Below are positions 1 to 8,894 of a stretch of DNA of 32,176 nt, in pieces (the stretch's first letter is position 1; every line of letters begins with the position of its first letter). The translations under genes were made by a program, and so were the position numbers. The notes under the pieces were generated by a model that was not told the DNA's origin, ran no database searches, and saw nothing but the letters and a program-made list of their open reading frames with translations. This DNA comes from Acidobacteria bacterium RBG_13_68_16 (GTDB taxonomy: Bacteria; Acidobacteriota; Thermoanaerobaculia; Thermoanaerobaculales; Thermoanaerobaculaceae), in NCBI GenBank assembly GCA_001766905.1, contig MEKI01000091.1:77031-109206 (forward strand), read 5' to 3'.

Positions 1-1370
1 CGCGGGTCCGGCGCCACGCGCTGGGCGAGGTCCTGCTCGACGTGGGGGGCCTCGTCCCCCGCTTCGGCAGCGAGCCAAGCGAGCGGGAATTCACTTCCCG
101 CGAGCGCGGGGGGCACGGGGGGTCTAGAGCGCCGGGCGGTGGCAGGGAGCGGCGCGGGACCCCCCGCGAAGAAAGCATTGCGCACGAGCTCTTGCGTGCC
201 TGCCGGCGGGTCGGGTTGGAAGCCAGAGTCGGCATCGCCGCCAGCGTCGGTGTGGCCAGAGCTGCAGCGAGGTGTGCTCAATCGAGTGTAGGGGCGGGGC
301 TTGCCCCCGCCCGTCGTGGCGATGCGGTCGTGGTCCGACTTGGGGAAGAGTGCACCTTCATGGCCCCGCTGCCGCTGGTGCTGCTGGAACCGCCGCCCGA
401 CCTCGCGGCGATGCTGGCGCGTTGGGGGCTCGCCACCGCCAGCGAGCTGGCCCGGCTCCCGCGCCAGGAGGTCGCGCTCCGGCTCGGGCAGGATGGGGTG
501 GCGCTCCACCGGCTCGCGTGCGGGGAGGAGACGGCCGCCTTCGTTCCCGACCCGCTGCGGGAGGTGCTGCGGGAGGGGGTGGAGCTGGACTTCCCCCTCG
601 GGGTGTTGGAGCCGTTCCTGTTCCTGGCGAGCGGCATCCTCTCGCGCTTGGAGCGGCGCCTGGAGTTGCGCGGGGAGGGGTTTTCCGAGGTCCTGCTGGA
701 GTTGCACCTGGAAGGGGGAGGGCACCGGGAGTGCCGCCTCAAGCTGGTGGCGCCCACGCGGGAGGTGCCGGCGGTGCTGGCACTGGCGCGGCTGCAACTC
801 GAGGCGAGCCCTCCGGGAGCTCCGGTGGAGGGGGTGGCGGCGCTGGTCACGCCGGGCCGGGTGCGGCTGGCGCAGGGTTCGCTGTTCGGCCCCGCCACGC
901 CGGCGCCCGGGAAGCTCTCGACCGCGCTGGCCCGCCTGGCGGCACTGGTGGGGCCGGACCGGGTGGGCGCGCCGGCCGTCCCAGACACCCACCGTCCCGG
1001 CGCCTGGGACCTCGCGCCGTTCGCTCCCGTAGAGGAGCGGGCCACAGAAAGGCAAGTGCACGACTCGGCTCGGTGGGTGGGGGAACTGCGCCCCGCACCC
1101 TGCGCGCTGACCCCTGTCTTGCGGGCGTTCCGGCCGCCGCGCCGGGTGGAGGTTGTCGCGGTCGGCGGCCGGCCCGTGGTGGTGCGGAAGGACGGAACGG
1201 GGGGGCTGGTGGTGGGGTGGGCCGGCCCGTACCGGTTCGTCGGCGACTGGTGGGGGGACGAGCCGTGCGCGCGGGAGGAGTTCGACGTCGCCACCGAGGA
1301 TGGCTCGCTGTTGCGTGTCTACTTCGACCGCCTCGAGCACCGGTGGTTCGCAGACGGGATCTATGACTGA
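1..1370 (+). CDS. imuB: DNA polymerase Y-family protein ImuB, 5' end truncated by window edge
   Basis: Frame is open from position 3 (RVRRHALGEVLLDVGGLVPRFG...). Motifs GLEARVGIAASVGVARAAAR, PLPLVLLEPPPDLAAMLARWGLATASELARLPRQEVALRLGQDGVALHRLACGE and C-terminal PYRFVGDWW...FDVATEDGSLLRVYFDRLEHRWFADGIYD are ImuB-like. It overlaps dnaE2 by 8 nt. Confidence 0.88.
   Translation, partial: RVRRHALGEVLLDVGGLVPRFGSEPSEREFTSRERGGHGGSRAPGGGRERRGTPREESIAHELLRACRRVGLEARVGIAASVGVARAAARCAQSSVGAGLAPARRGDAVVVRLGEECTFMAPLPLVLLEPPPDLAAMLARWGLATASELARLPRQEVALRLGQDGVALHRLACGEETAAFVPDPLREVLREGVELDFPLGVLEPFLFLASGILSRLERRLELRGEGFSEVLLELHLEGGGHRECRLKLVAPTREVPAVLALARLQLEASPPGAPVEGVAALVTPGRVRLAQGSLFGPATPAPGKLSTALARLAALVGPDRVGAPAVPDTHRPGAWDLAPFAPVEERATERQVHDSARWVGELRPAPCALTPVLRAFRPPRRVEVVAVGGRPVVVRKDGTGGLVVGWAGPYRFVGDWWGDEPCAREEFDVATEDGSLLRVYFDRLEHRWFADGIYD
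84..168. repeat. Candidate palindromic repeat insertion in imuB
   Basis: GCGGGAA...TTCCCGC palindrome near 84-102 and the inverted pair CGCGGGGGG (105-113) / CCCCCCGCG (160-168). It encodes a low-complexity Arg/Gly-rich peptide between conserved ImuB segments. Boundaries approximate. Confidence 0.5.
288..316. repeat. GC-rich palindromic (REP-like) repeat within imuB
   Basis: GTAGGGGCGGGGCTTGCCCCCGCCC forms a stem-loop and encodes VGAGLAPAR. GTAGGGGCGGGGCT[T/C]GCCC recurs at 4668, just after dnaE2. Confidence 0.6.
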
Positions 1371-4300
1371 TCGGTATTGCGAGCTGCACGCGCACACCGC
1401 GTTCTCGTTCCTGGAGGGGGCGTCGGCACCCGAGGACCTGGCGGAGCGCGCGGCGCGGCTCGGCCTCCCCGCGGTGGCGGTGGCCGACCGCGGCGGGGTG
1501 TACGGTATCCCGCGCTTCCACACGGCGGCCCGGGAAGCCGGCGTGGAGGCGATCGTGGGCGCCGAGGCGGTGCTCCCCGATGGCTCGAGGCTGCCGCTCC
1601 TCGTCCAGGACGCGCGCGGCTACTCCAACCTGTGCCGGATGCTCACCTCGGGGGCGCTCGGACGTCCCAAGGGCGAGGCCGTGGTGAGCTGGGAGCTGCT
1701 CGAGCAGCACGCCGGCGGCCTGTTCGCCCTTACCGGCGGTGAGAGCGGCCCGCTGGTTCGAGCCTTGAAGGGAGGCGGTGAACAGCCTGCCGCCGGTGTG
1801 CTGCACCGGTTGGTCGAGATCTTCGGTGCGGCCCGTGTGGCGGTGGAGGTGCAGCGCCACCAGCGCCGGGGCGAGGAGACACGCAACGCCGCCCTCGTGC
1901 GCCTGGCACAGGCGGTGGGGGTGCCGGTGGTGGCGACCCAGGACGCGCTTCACGCCGCGCCGGCCGACGGCCCGCTGGCCGACGCGCTGGCCTGCATCCG
2001 CGAGCACCACACCCTGGACACCGCGGGACGCCTCCTCGAGCCCAACCGCGCACGCCACCTGCGCTCGCCCGGAGAGATGGCGCGGCTGTTCGCCGACCTC
2101 CCGGATGCGGTCGCGGCAACCTGCCGCGTCGCGGACGCCTGCCCGTTCCGCCTGCACCAGCTCCCGTACCGCTTCCCCTCGGCCCGCCTGGAGGAGGGCC
2201 GCGACGAGGCGGAGGAGCTGCGGGTGCGGGTCGAGGAGGGGGCGCGCGAGCGCTACTTCACCGTCACCCCCAAGGTGCGGTTGCAACTCGAGCGCGAGCT
2301 CTCGCTCATCGGGAAGCTCGGCCTCGCCGGGTACTTCCTGGTGGTCCACGACATCGTGCGCTTCTGCCGCGCCCGCAGCATCCTCGCCCAGGGGCGGGGC
2401 TCGGCGGCCAACTCGGCGGTGTGCTACGCGCTCTCCATCACCGCGGTGGACCCGGTCGCGATGGAGCTGCTGTTCGAGCGCTTCCTCTCGGAGGAGCGGG
2501 GTGAGTGGCCGGACATCGACATCGACCTGCCCTCCGGGGACCTGCGCGAGGAGGTGATCCAGCACGTCTACCGCACCTACGGCGAGCGCGGCGCCGCGAT
2601 GACCGCCAACGTGATCACCTACAAGAGGCGCAGCGCGATCCGCGAGGTGGGGAAGGTGCTGGGGTTCTCCGCGGAACACCTCGACCGGCTCTCGGCGCTA
2701 TCCGGGAGCTGGGAGTTCGCGGCCCACGTGCGGGAGGAGCTGCCCGAGCACCTCCGGATCGCGGGACTCGCCCCTGAGGAGCGCCGCGCCCGCCTGTTGG
2801 TCGAGCTTGTGGCGCGCGTCATGCACCTGCCGCGCCACCTTGGCCAGCACTCCGGCGGCATGGTGCTGGCGGCCGGGCGCCTGGACGACGTGGTACCGCT
2901 CGAGCCCGCCAGCATGCCGGGGCGCGTGGTGATCCAGTGGGACAAGGACGACTGCGCCGACCTCGGCATCATCAAGGTTGACCTTCTGGGCCTCGGCATG
3001 CTTCAGGTGCTCCAGGACGCGGTGCCGCTCATCAAGGAGCACGAGGGGGTGGCGATCGACCTCGCCCACCTGCCCCCCGACGACCCCGGGGTCTACGACA
3101 TGCTGTGCCGCGCCGACACCGTCGGTGTCTTCCAGATCGAGAGCCGGGCGCAGATGGCCACGCTGCCGCGCATGAAGCCGCAGCGCTTCTACGACCTCGT
3201 GGTGGAGGTGGCGATCATCCGCCCCGGGCCGATCGTCGGCAAGATGGTGCACCCCTACCTCAACCGGCGCGCCGGGTGCGAGAGGGTGATCTACCCGCAC
3301 CCGGACCTGGAACCGATCCTCAAGCGCACGCTGGGTGTGCCGCTGTTCCAGGAGCAGCTGATGCGAGTGGCGATGGTGGCGGCGGGGTTCTCCGGCGGTC
3401 AGGCCGAGGAGCTGCGCCGCGCCATGGGCGCCAAGCGCTCGGTGGAGCGCATGGCGAAGCTGGAACGTCAGCTGCGCGAAGGGATGGCAGAGCGCGGCAT
3501 CGAGGGCCCGGCCGCGGACGGCATCGTGCAGGGGATCACCTCGTTTGCGCTCTACGGCTTCCCCGAGTCCCACGCCGCCAGCTTCGCGCTGATCGCCTAC
3601 GCCTCCGCCTACCTGCGTGCCCACCACCCGGCCTGCTTCCTCGCCGCGCTCCTCAACGCCTGGCCGATGGGGTTCTACCACCCGGCCACTCTCGTCCAGG
3701 ACGCGAAACGGCACGGCGTGCGCGTCCTCCCTATCGATGTGAACACCTCGGGTGTCGCGTGCCGGGTCGAGGTTTCCCCTGCTGTCATCCTGAGCCCGTC
3801 CCGCGGAGGCGGGGCGGGCGAAGGATCCCACCGCGCCTGGAGCGCGCCCTGTTCCGCTGAAGTGAGGTGGGATTCTTCGGCCGCTGCGCGGCCTCAGAAT
3901 GACAACCCTGTGCCGGCCATCCGACACCCGGATCGCGCCACGGTCCCCGGTCTTGCGGTGCGGCTCGGCCTACGCTTCGTCAAGGGCCTGCGCGAGGAAG
4001 CCGCGAAGCGCATCGAGGAGGAGGCGGCCAAAGGGCCGTTCGTTTCGGTGCGCGAGGTGGCAGCGCGCTGCTCCCTGCGCAACGACGAGCTGGCCGCCCT
4101 CGCCGAGATCGGCGCCTTCGCCTCCCTCGGCCAGACCCGCCGCTCGGCGCTTTGGCAGGTCTCGGCCCTGGACGGCCGCCGGCCTCCGCTTGCACAGGCA
4201 ATGCAGCCCGACCCGCCGCCGAGCCAGCTCCCCGAGATGACGCTGCGCGAGCGGTACGTCGCGGACTACCTGGGCTCGGGGGTGACAGTCGGACGCCACC

Positions 4301-4653
4301 CGCTGGCGCTGCGCCGCATGGAGCTGGCCGGGCGCGGCATCCTCTCCGCGGCGCAGCTTGCCCGTGTGCGTGACGGTCAGCTCGTGCGCGTCGCCGGCGT
4401 CGTGATCGTCCGCCAGCGCCCGTACACCGCCAAGGGGATGTGCTTCATGACTCTGGAGGACGAGACTGGCTTCGCCAACATCGCGGTCATGCCGAACAAC
4501 TTCGACCTGCAACGCGCCGTCATCACCACCAGCGCCCTACTCGAGGTCGAGGGCCGCGCGCAGGCGCGGGACGGCGTCGTAACCGTGCTCGCCGGCCGCT
4601 GCCGCCCGCTGCCCGCCGCCACCCCCGCCTCACCCTCGCGAGACTTCCACTGA
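1363..4653 (+). CDS. dnaE2: Error-prone DNA polymerase III alpha subunit DnaE2 (ImuC)
   Basis: PHP domain start MTDRYCELHAHTAFSFLEGASAPEDL; QGRGSAANSAVCY; PDIDIDLPSGDLREEVIQHVYRTYGERGAAMTANVITYKRRSAIREVGKVLG; HLGQHSGGMVL; PLFQEQLMRVAMVAAGFSGGQAEELRRAMGAKRS; FALYGFPESHAASFALIAYASAYLRAHHPACF; C-terminal OB fold. ATG at 1363 overlaps the imuB stop. Confidence 0.95.
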   Translation: MTDRYCELHAHTAFSFLEGASAPEDLAERAARLGLPAVAVADRGGVYGIPRFHTAAREAGVEAIVGAEAVLPDGSRLPLLVQDARGYSNLCRMLTSGALGRPKGEAVVSWELLEQHAGGLFALTGGESGPLVRALKGGGEQPAAGVLHRLVEIFGAARVAVEVQRHQRRGEETRNAALVRLAQAVGVPVVATQDALHAAPADGPLADALACIREHHTLDTAGRLLEPNRARHLRSPGEMARLFADLPDAVAATCRVADACPFRLHQLPYRFPSARLEEGRDEAEELRVRVEEGARERYFTVTPKVRLQLERELSLIGKLGLAGYFLVVHDIVRFCRARSILAQGRGSAANSAVCYALSITAVDPVAMELLFERFLSEERGEWPDIDIDLPSGDLREEVIQHVYRTYGERGAAMTANVITYKRRSAIREVGKVLGFSAEHLDRLSALSGSWEFAAHVREELPEHLRIAGLAPEERRARLLVELVARVMHLPRHLGQHSGGMVLAAGRLDDVVPLEPASMPGRVVIQWDKDDCADLGIIKVDLLGLGMLQVLQDAVPLIKEHEGVAIDLAHLPPDDPGVYDMLCRADTVGVFQIESRAQMATLPRMKPQRFYDLVVEVAIIRPGPIVGKMVHPYLNRRAGCERVIYPHPDLEPILKRTLGVPLFQEQLMRVAMVAAGFSGGQAEELRRAMGAKRSVERMAKLERQLREGMAERGIEGPAADGIVQGITSFALYGFPESHAASFALIAYASAYLRAHHPACFLAALLNAWPMGFYHPATLVQDAKRHGVRVLPIDVNTSGVACRVEVSPAVILSPSRGGGAGEGSHRAWSAPCSAEVRWDSSAAARPQNDNPVPAIRHPDRATVPGLAVRLGLRFVKGLREEAAKRIEEEAAKGPFVSVREVAARCSLRNDELAALAEIGAFASLGQTRRSALWQVSALDGRRPPLAQAMQPDPPPSQLPEMTLRERYVADYLGSGVTVGRHPLALRRMELAGRGILSAAQLARVRDGQLVRVAGVVIVRQRPYTAKGMCFMTLEDETGFANIAVMPNNFDLQRAVITTSALLEVEGRAQARDGVVTVLAGRCRPLPAATPASPSRDFH
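3783..3904. repeat. Palindromic repeat / MITE-like element inserted within dnaE2
   Basis: Left end TGTCATCCTGAG (3783-3794) and right end CTCAGAATGACA (3893-3904; reverse complement TGTCATTCTGAG) form 11/12 terminal inverted repeats. Flanked by CCCTG at 3777-3781 and 3906-3910. Confidence 0.75.
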
Positions 4654-7268: not shown

Positions 7269-7670
7269 ATGGCTCTCAAGCAGGTGTTGATCGCCGACGA
7301 CAGTCGAATCTTCCGGATCTTGATGAGCGAGGTGCTGCTGGAGCGCGGCATCGAAGTCTTCGAGGCCGCCAATGGGCGTGAGGCGCTCGCCCTTCTGCTC
7401 GACAAGCGCCCTCAACTGGCGATCCTCGATGGACTCATGCCGCTGCTCTCGGGGTTCGACGTCATCCAGCAGGCGCGCTTGGCCGCTCCCAACTACAAGC
7501 CGGTGATATTCATCGTCACGGCGGTCTACAAGAGCCGCGGATACGAGGCGGACGCCAGGAGACAGTATCAGGTCGAGGAGTACCTGCAGAAGCCGCTCGA
7601 GCCGGAGGACCTCTTGGCCGCGATCGCACGCCACTTTCCCGAGGTTTCTGGGTCGCCCAGCAAGGCGTGA
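7269..7670 (+). CDS. Single-domain response regulator (CheY-like receiver)
   Basis: MALKQVLIADDSRIFRILMSEVLLERGIEVFEAANGREALALLLDKRPQLAILDGLMPLLSGFDVI...FIVTAVYK...YQVEEYLQKPLEPEDL; DDS, phospho-Asp (ILDGLMP), Thr and KP motifs present; GAGGCGG just before ATG. 133 aa. Confidence 0.9.
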   Translation: MALKQVLIADDSRIFRILMSEVLLERGIEVFEAANGREALALLLDKRPQLAILDGLMPLLSGFDVIQQARLAAPNYKPVIFIVTAVYKSRGYEADARRQYQVEEYLQKPLEPEDLLAAIARHFPEVSGSPSKA

Positions 7671-7875: not shown

Positions 7876-8277
7876 ATGAGTCTTAAGCGAGTCTTGATCG
7901 CCGACGACAGCCACGTCTTCCGCGTGTTCGTAACCGACGTTCTGCGGGAGCACGGCCTAGAGGTCTTGGAGGCCTCAACCGGGCGCCAGGCGATGGAGAT
8001 CATGCTTGCCGAGCGCCCCCAGCTCGCGATCCTCGATGGACTCATGCCGCTGCTCTCCGGTTTCGAGGTCATCGATAAGGTGCGGGCCGCTGCTCCCGAC
8101 TACAAGCCCGTTGTGTTCATAGTGACGGCCGTTTACAAGGGCCGCCGCTGGGAGTCGGAGGCGAGGCAGAAGTATCAGGTCCAGGAGTAACTGCAGAAAC
8201 CCTTCGAGCCGCAGGATCTGAGTGACGCGATACGTCGCCACTTTCCCCGCGTCCCGGCGCCACCTGCGAAGAGCTGA
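7876..8277 (+). pseudogene. Paralogous single-domain response regulator interrupted by an in-frame TAA (stop ending 8190)
   Basis: MSLKRVLIADDSHVFRVFVTDVLREHGLEVLEASTGRQAMEIMLAERPQLAILDGLMPLLSGFEVIDK...QKYQVQE* followed in the same frame by LQKPFEPQDLSDAIRRHFPRVPAPPAKS*. Full frame is 133 codons plus stop, matching the 7269 paralog. Confidence 0.75.
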
Positions 8278-8474: not shown

Positions 8475-8894
8475 ATGAATGTCAAGCGCTTTCTTCTTGC
8501 ATCGCTGGCGGTTTTCACCGTCGGAATGGTGTGGGGCGGGCTCGTGCATCTCGTTCTCTTGCGCGAGGCCAACGCCGCCATCGCGCACCTGATGCGTCCC
8601 GACCTGGCGGGAAAGATGTGGATGTCCGTCGTCGCCAGCGTGGGCTTCGCCTTGCTGTTCGTCCTCGGGTACAGCCGGTTTGCCCGCAGGGGAACGGTAG
8701 GCGAGGGGATCGTGTACGGGGCGTTCTTCGCCGCCGTGGCCGGGCTTCTCGTGGACGTGAACCAGTACGTGCTGTACCCGATCCCCGGGACCCTTGCCTG
8801 CACCTGGTTCCTCGCAGGCATGCTCGAGTTCGGCCTGTACGGCGCCCTGGTGAGCTGGCTGTACCCCGTCGCCTTGGGGAACCCGACCTCTTGA
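8475..8894 (+). CDS. Hypothetical four-TM membrane protein
   Basis: MNVKRFLLASLAVFTVGMVWGGLVHLVLL...MSVVASVGFALLFVLGYSRF...GIVYGAFFAAVAGLLVDVNQYVLYPIPGTLACTWFLAGMLEFGLYGALVSWLY. Confidence 0.7.
   Translation: MNVKRFLLASLAVFTVGMVWGGLVHLVLLREANAAIAHLMRPDLAGKMWMSVVASVGFALLFVLGYSRFARRGTVGEGIVYGAFFAAVAGLLVDVNQYVLYPIPGTLACTWFLAGMLEFGLYGALVSWLYPVALGNPTS

Follow-up and report, generated by a model that had tools for sequence, protein, structure and literature searches.

Tandem receiver genes and the interrupted frame

The window analysed here is a 32,176-nt stretch of a 3.61-Mb draft genome (163 contigs, 91% complete; G000, contig C91, positions 77031-109206). On its forward strand it carries two tandem genes for receiver-only, single-domain response regulators. 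The first, paralog 1 (7269..7670), is intact. Its 133-aa translation, which contains YQVEEYLQKPLEPEDL, matches the Pfam family Response_reg (PF00072) at 1.1e-17 and 64.6 bits. Sequence and predicted fold (AlphaFold2, mean pLDDT 91) both make it a CheY/Spo0F-like protein; Spo0F and CheY are the solved structures closest in sequence. The closest named homolog in the search, 61% identical, comes from an Acidobacteria metagenome assembly (PMLC01000098), so that the host is probably an acidobacterium.

Paralog 2 (7876..8277, forward strand) is a gene of the same kind, with 134 codons including the final TGA and one in-frame stop. Its frame reads MSLKRVLIADDS...QKYQVQE, then the stop, then LQKPFEPQDLSDAIRRHFPRVPAPPAKS and the terminal stop. 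The interruption is a TAA at codon 105 (8188..8190), at which paralog 1 has TAC, a single C-to-A difference, and every aligned relative has a tyrosine. Beyond the TAA the frame is open up to its natural TGA, no second stop or frameshift is present, and the length of 402 nt equals that of paralog 1. Re-reading the frames bore out the first-pass annotation in its coordinates, lengths and codons for both genes as well as in its description of an open frame of unchanged length past the stop; we can add that the tail and an intact ortholog from a genome of the same genus (G005, contig C330) align position by position. As written, paralog 2 has a readable product of 104 aa plus stop (7876..8190, forward strand), followed by a 3' remnant (8191..8277, same strand) that retains the original TGA and, judging from the frame and from the comparison with G005, is still constrained. 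The fragment scores 51.8 bits against Response_reg over profile positions 1-78 of 111 only, and like paralog 1 it clears the gathering score of 30.2 bits. Since both frames match this family and the post-stop sequence aligns to the intact G005 ortholog, the paralog 2 frame is not a chance one. A scan for promoters and terminators found none.

What the stop removes

In an alignment of 25 homologs, from which the disrupted copy was left out, Asp54, Thr84, Tyr105, Lys108 and Pro109 are invariant. The AlphaFold2 model of paralog 1 places strand beta5 at residues 104-107 and helix alpha5 at 112-120. A product that ends at residue 104, about one fifth short of the full protein, therefore has an incomplete (beta-alpha)5 fold, with only the first residue of beta5 left and alpha5 gone. 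This agrees with the earlier proposal that truncation would take away the beta5/alpha5 part with its Lys-Pro motif: Lys108, the receiver active-site lysine, is lost together with Pro109. The earlier description had not included that the lost codon 105 is itself the invariant switch aromatic at position K-3, known as the "Y-T coupling" residue (PMC12632262). Because the switch residue, one of the five catalytic residues, a core strand and a helix are all removed, loss of function is to be expected. We infer from the sequence and the structural model that the 104-aa product would not be a working phosphorylation switch, and the fragment is most likely unstable.

Genes of this kind share with receivers of the CheY and Spo0F type (PF00072) the receiver-only architecture, the Asp-Asp pair, the phospho-acceptor Asp54, Thr84, Lys108 and the K-3 aromatic, whereas paralog 2 as written halts ahead of the K-3 aromatic and the lysine and is without alpha5. 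From the active-site set of five (DD, D, T, K) it keeps D10/D11, D54 and T84, with Lys108 lying past the stop. An otherwise receiver-like domain that lacks at least one of these five residues has been defined as a pseudo-receiver (PMC12632262). Paralog 2 fits the wording of this definition and not its sense: its lysine is missing because a nonsense codon breaks off the fold and leaves the domain incomplete, not because of a substitution within a whole domain, and in this it differs from pseudo-receivers and atypical response regulators.

Relatives of the pair and the age of the stop

The G005 genome has the same tandem pair on contig C330, at nearly equal spacing. The surroundings also match those in the window, with a DnaE2-like polymerase gene on one side, a small membrane protein gene on the other and a GMP-synthase-like gene in between. 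The comparison with orthologs that the first-pass annotation had proposed finds the G005 copy of paralog 2 (C330:3189-3587) intact, 89% identical over 132 aa and with Tyr at codon 105, and no relative shares the stop. The search across 17 genomes of the family returned 24 close homologs, of which the window copy alone is interrupted within the domain; a seemingly second interrupted case, a "TGA inside" in genome G010, was rejected as the natural end of that gene. The lesion is thus absent from orthologs, as in a young pseudogene.

In the phylogenetic tree the two paralogs 2 of the window and G005 are paired (support 100/99), as are the two paralogs 1 (92/89), and the four tandem copies form one clade (98/95). 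This pairing of like with like places the tandem duplication before the split of the two lineages. Beyond the window genome and G005, the tandem pair was not found in the genus (nine genomes). The branch of the window paralog 2 is long (0.10, vs 0.026 for G005), a feature that is not peculiar to the interrupted copy, since the branch of the window paralog 1 also exceeds that of its G005 counterpart (0.27 vs 0.085). A third copy, which belongs to the most widespread form of the family and has a STAS-domain gene and an aminotransferase gene as neighbours, is intact both in the window genome (C110) and in G005 (C200); the C110 copy is probably the ancestral one. With paralog 1 and the C110 copy both intact, the organism could do without paralog 2, which would be partly redundant.

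Between the window and G005 copies of paralog 2, dN/dS is 0.073 over codons 1-104 and 0.064 over codons 106-126, values that point to purifying selection on the sequence on both sides of the stop. The codons past the stop have not changed nonsynonymously at a significantly higher rate than those ahead of it (Fisher p 0.27 for codons 106-126 and 0.11 for codons 106-132). A stop dating back to the split between the lineages would be expected to be followed by 13-31 nonsynonymous changes; approximately 4-6 are seen. At the 95% level this places the origin of the stop no earlier than the final 25-70% of the window branch, a loose bound because G005 is distant (dS approximately 0.7) and the post-stop region short (21-27 codons). 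The gene shows no other decay, and its constraint is of the kind inherited from a functional ancestor.

One could envision that the 104-aa product has been retained as a functional atypical receiver, acting as a decoy or in a dominant-negative manner. The purifying selection on the 5' part of paralog 2 (dN/dS 0.07) is compatible with such a role, and pseudo-receivers without a catalytic residue are common, some of them working without being phosphorylated (PMC12632262). However, the stop is conserved in no relative and the post-stop part is as constrained as the body of the gene, a constraint for which a retained truncation would have no use; furthermore, pseudo-receivers as defined there miss catalytic residues, whereas the fragment additionally lacks alpha5 entirely and beta5 except for its first residue. 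We consequently reject a selected truncation and consider a retained, functional fragment highly unlikely. Its more specific form, in which the fragment would be expressed and kept and would compete, independently of phosphorylation, with its intact neighbour for the latter's partners, seems less probable still.

The open and constrained frame past the stop might alternatively mean that the TAA is read through by a suppressor tRNA, by recoding or by leaky termination to yield the full-length protein. A recent mutation accounts for the constraint equally well, and both the ortholog and the paralogs use a sense codon at position 105. No ochre-suppressor tRNA was found among the 39 tRNA genes detected in the approximately 91% complete genome: none has a TTA anticodon as read by ARAGORN, and the tRNA-Tyr has GTA. 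This absence is strong evidence, short of absolute given the completeness of the genome, and on its basis we reject a suppressor tRNA. Read-through in any form appears to us the least probable of the explanations considered.

A probable young nonsense allele or, less likely, a wrong base

The four options listed in the first-pass annotation do not fare alike. An intact ortholog, a constrained tail and a stop confined to one genome fit both recent pseudogenisation and an error of sequence or assembly; read-through, with no TTA-anticodon tRNA and a stop seen in a single genome, and a selected decoy, given that the stop occurs in no relative and that truncation costs the fold a core strand and a helix, find no support. 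In the error scenario the gene is intact in the organism, and sequencing, assembly or the mixing of strains has put one wrong base into the draft consensus. The draft genome has a metagenome-assembled character and is probably metagenome-derived, one C-to-A difference is the sole defect of an otherwise constrained frame, and the stop recurs in no relative. Weighing against this, the contig carrying the pair is long (109.5 kb), and real bacterial genomes commonly contain pseudogenes with a single nonsense codon. Approximately 350 kb of the same assembly were also scanned by codon usage for stops with in-frame coding sequence on both sides; on our reading of the resulting list, this yielded only gene junctions and antisense frames. 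The scan is weak for short tails, its 27-codon version having ranked paralog 2 itself 53rd of 217. Since no second clear nonsense-split gene emerged from these approximately 350 kb, false stops do not abound in the consensus, and we reject an error-ridden assembly; one wrong base at this codon is a lesser possibility, on the unlikely side, that deserves to be kept in mind.

Paralog 2 is probably a young, real nonsense allele in a duplicated gene, either fixed or segregating. It would be one member of a tandem pair, specific to this lineage, of genes for a CheY-like single-domain response regulator, and its codon 105 would have mutated to a stop in the sequenced population too recently for other decay to have followed. 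The allele may still be segregating there, and the gene would now encode a 104-residue fragment halting at the first residue of beta5. With nonsense pseudogenes of redundant bacterial paralogs it has in common a single stop, intact orthologs and paralogs and no further decay, and nothing notable sets it apart from them save the possibility of an artefact in the draft consensus. A literature search for nonsense pseudogenes in metagenome assemblies returned no matches. The wider significance is small: this is another duplicated signalling gene losing a copy, or else a one-base error in a draft genome, rather than a new kind of regulator. For annotation purposes, paralog 2 should be flagged as disrupted instead of being listed as a novel, short receiver.

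Neighbouring genes

The neighbourhood of polymerase and receiver genes is common to the window and G005. A frame at 42-1370, which by eye resembles a Y-family polymerase or ImuB relative, precedes the DnaE2-like polymerase frame (1153-4653), and the arrangement suggests that window positions 42-4653, which lie upstream of the two receiver genes, may form an ImuB-DnaE2 mutagenesis cassette. Within the DnaE2-like frame lies an in-frame stretch of repeat-derived appearance (3751-3957), a 34-nt piece of which is 94% identical to a sequence elsewhere in the same genome (L138:12270-12303). At the corresponding point the dnaE2 gene of G005 carries another in-frame insert, which differs from this one and contains a palindrome (L072:752-907). 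On the other side, the small membrane protein gene (8477-8894), which gave no Pfam or NCBIfam match, has a conserved counterpart next to the two receiver genes of G005 (L072:4892-5395).

In several genera of the family, the most widespread form of this receiver has as its neighbours a class-III aminotransferase gene and a small gene for a STAS-domain (SpoIIAA-like) protein (STAS-adjacent loci: L074:4276-5220, L075:4334-5282, L012, L014, L015 and L017). Besides this STAS-adjacent form, the genus has tandem copies of the receiver that are specific to a lineage. It is possible that receiver and STAS gene constitute a signalling pair.
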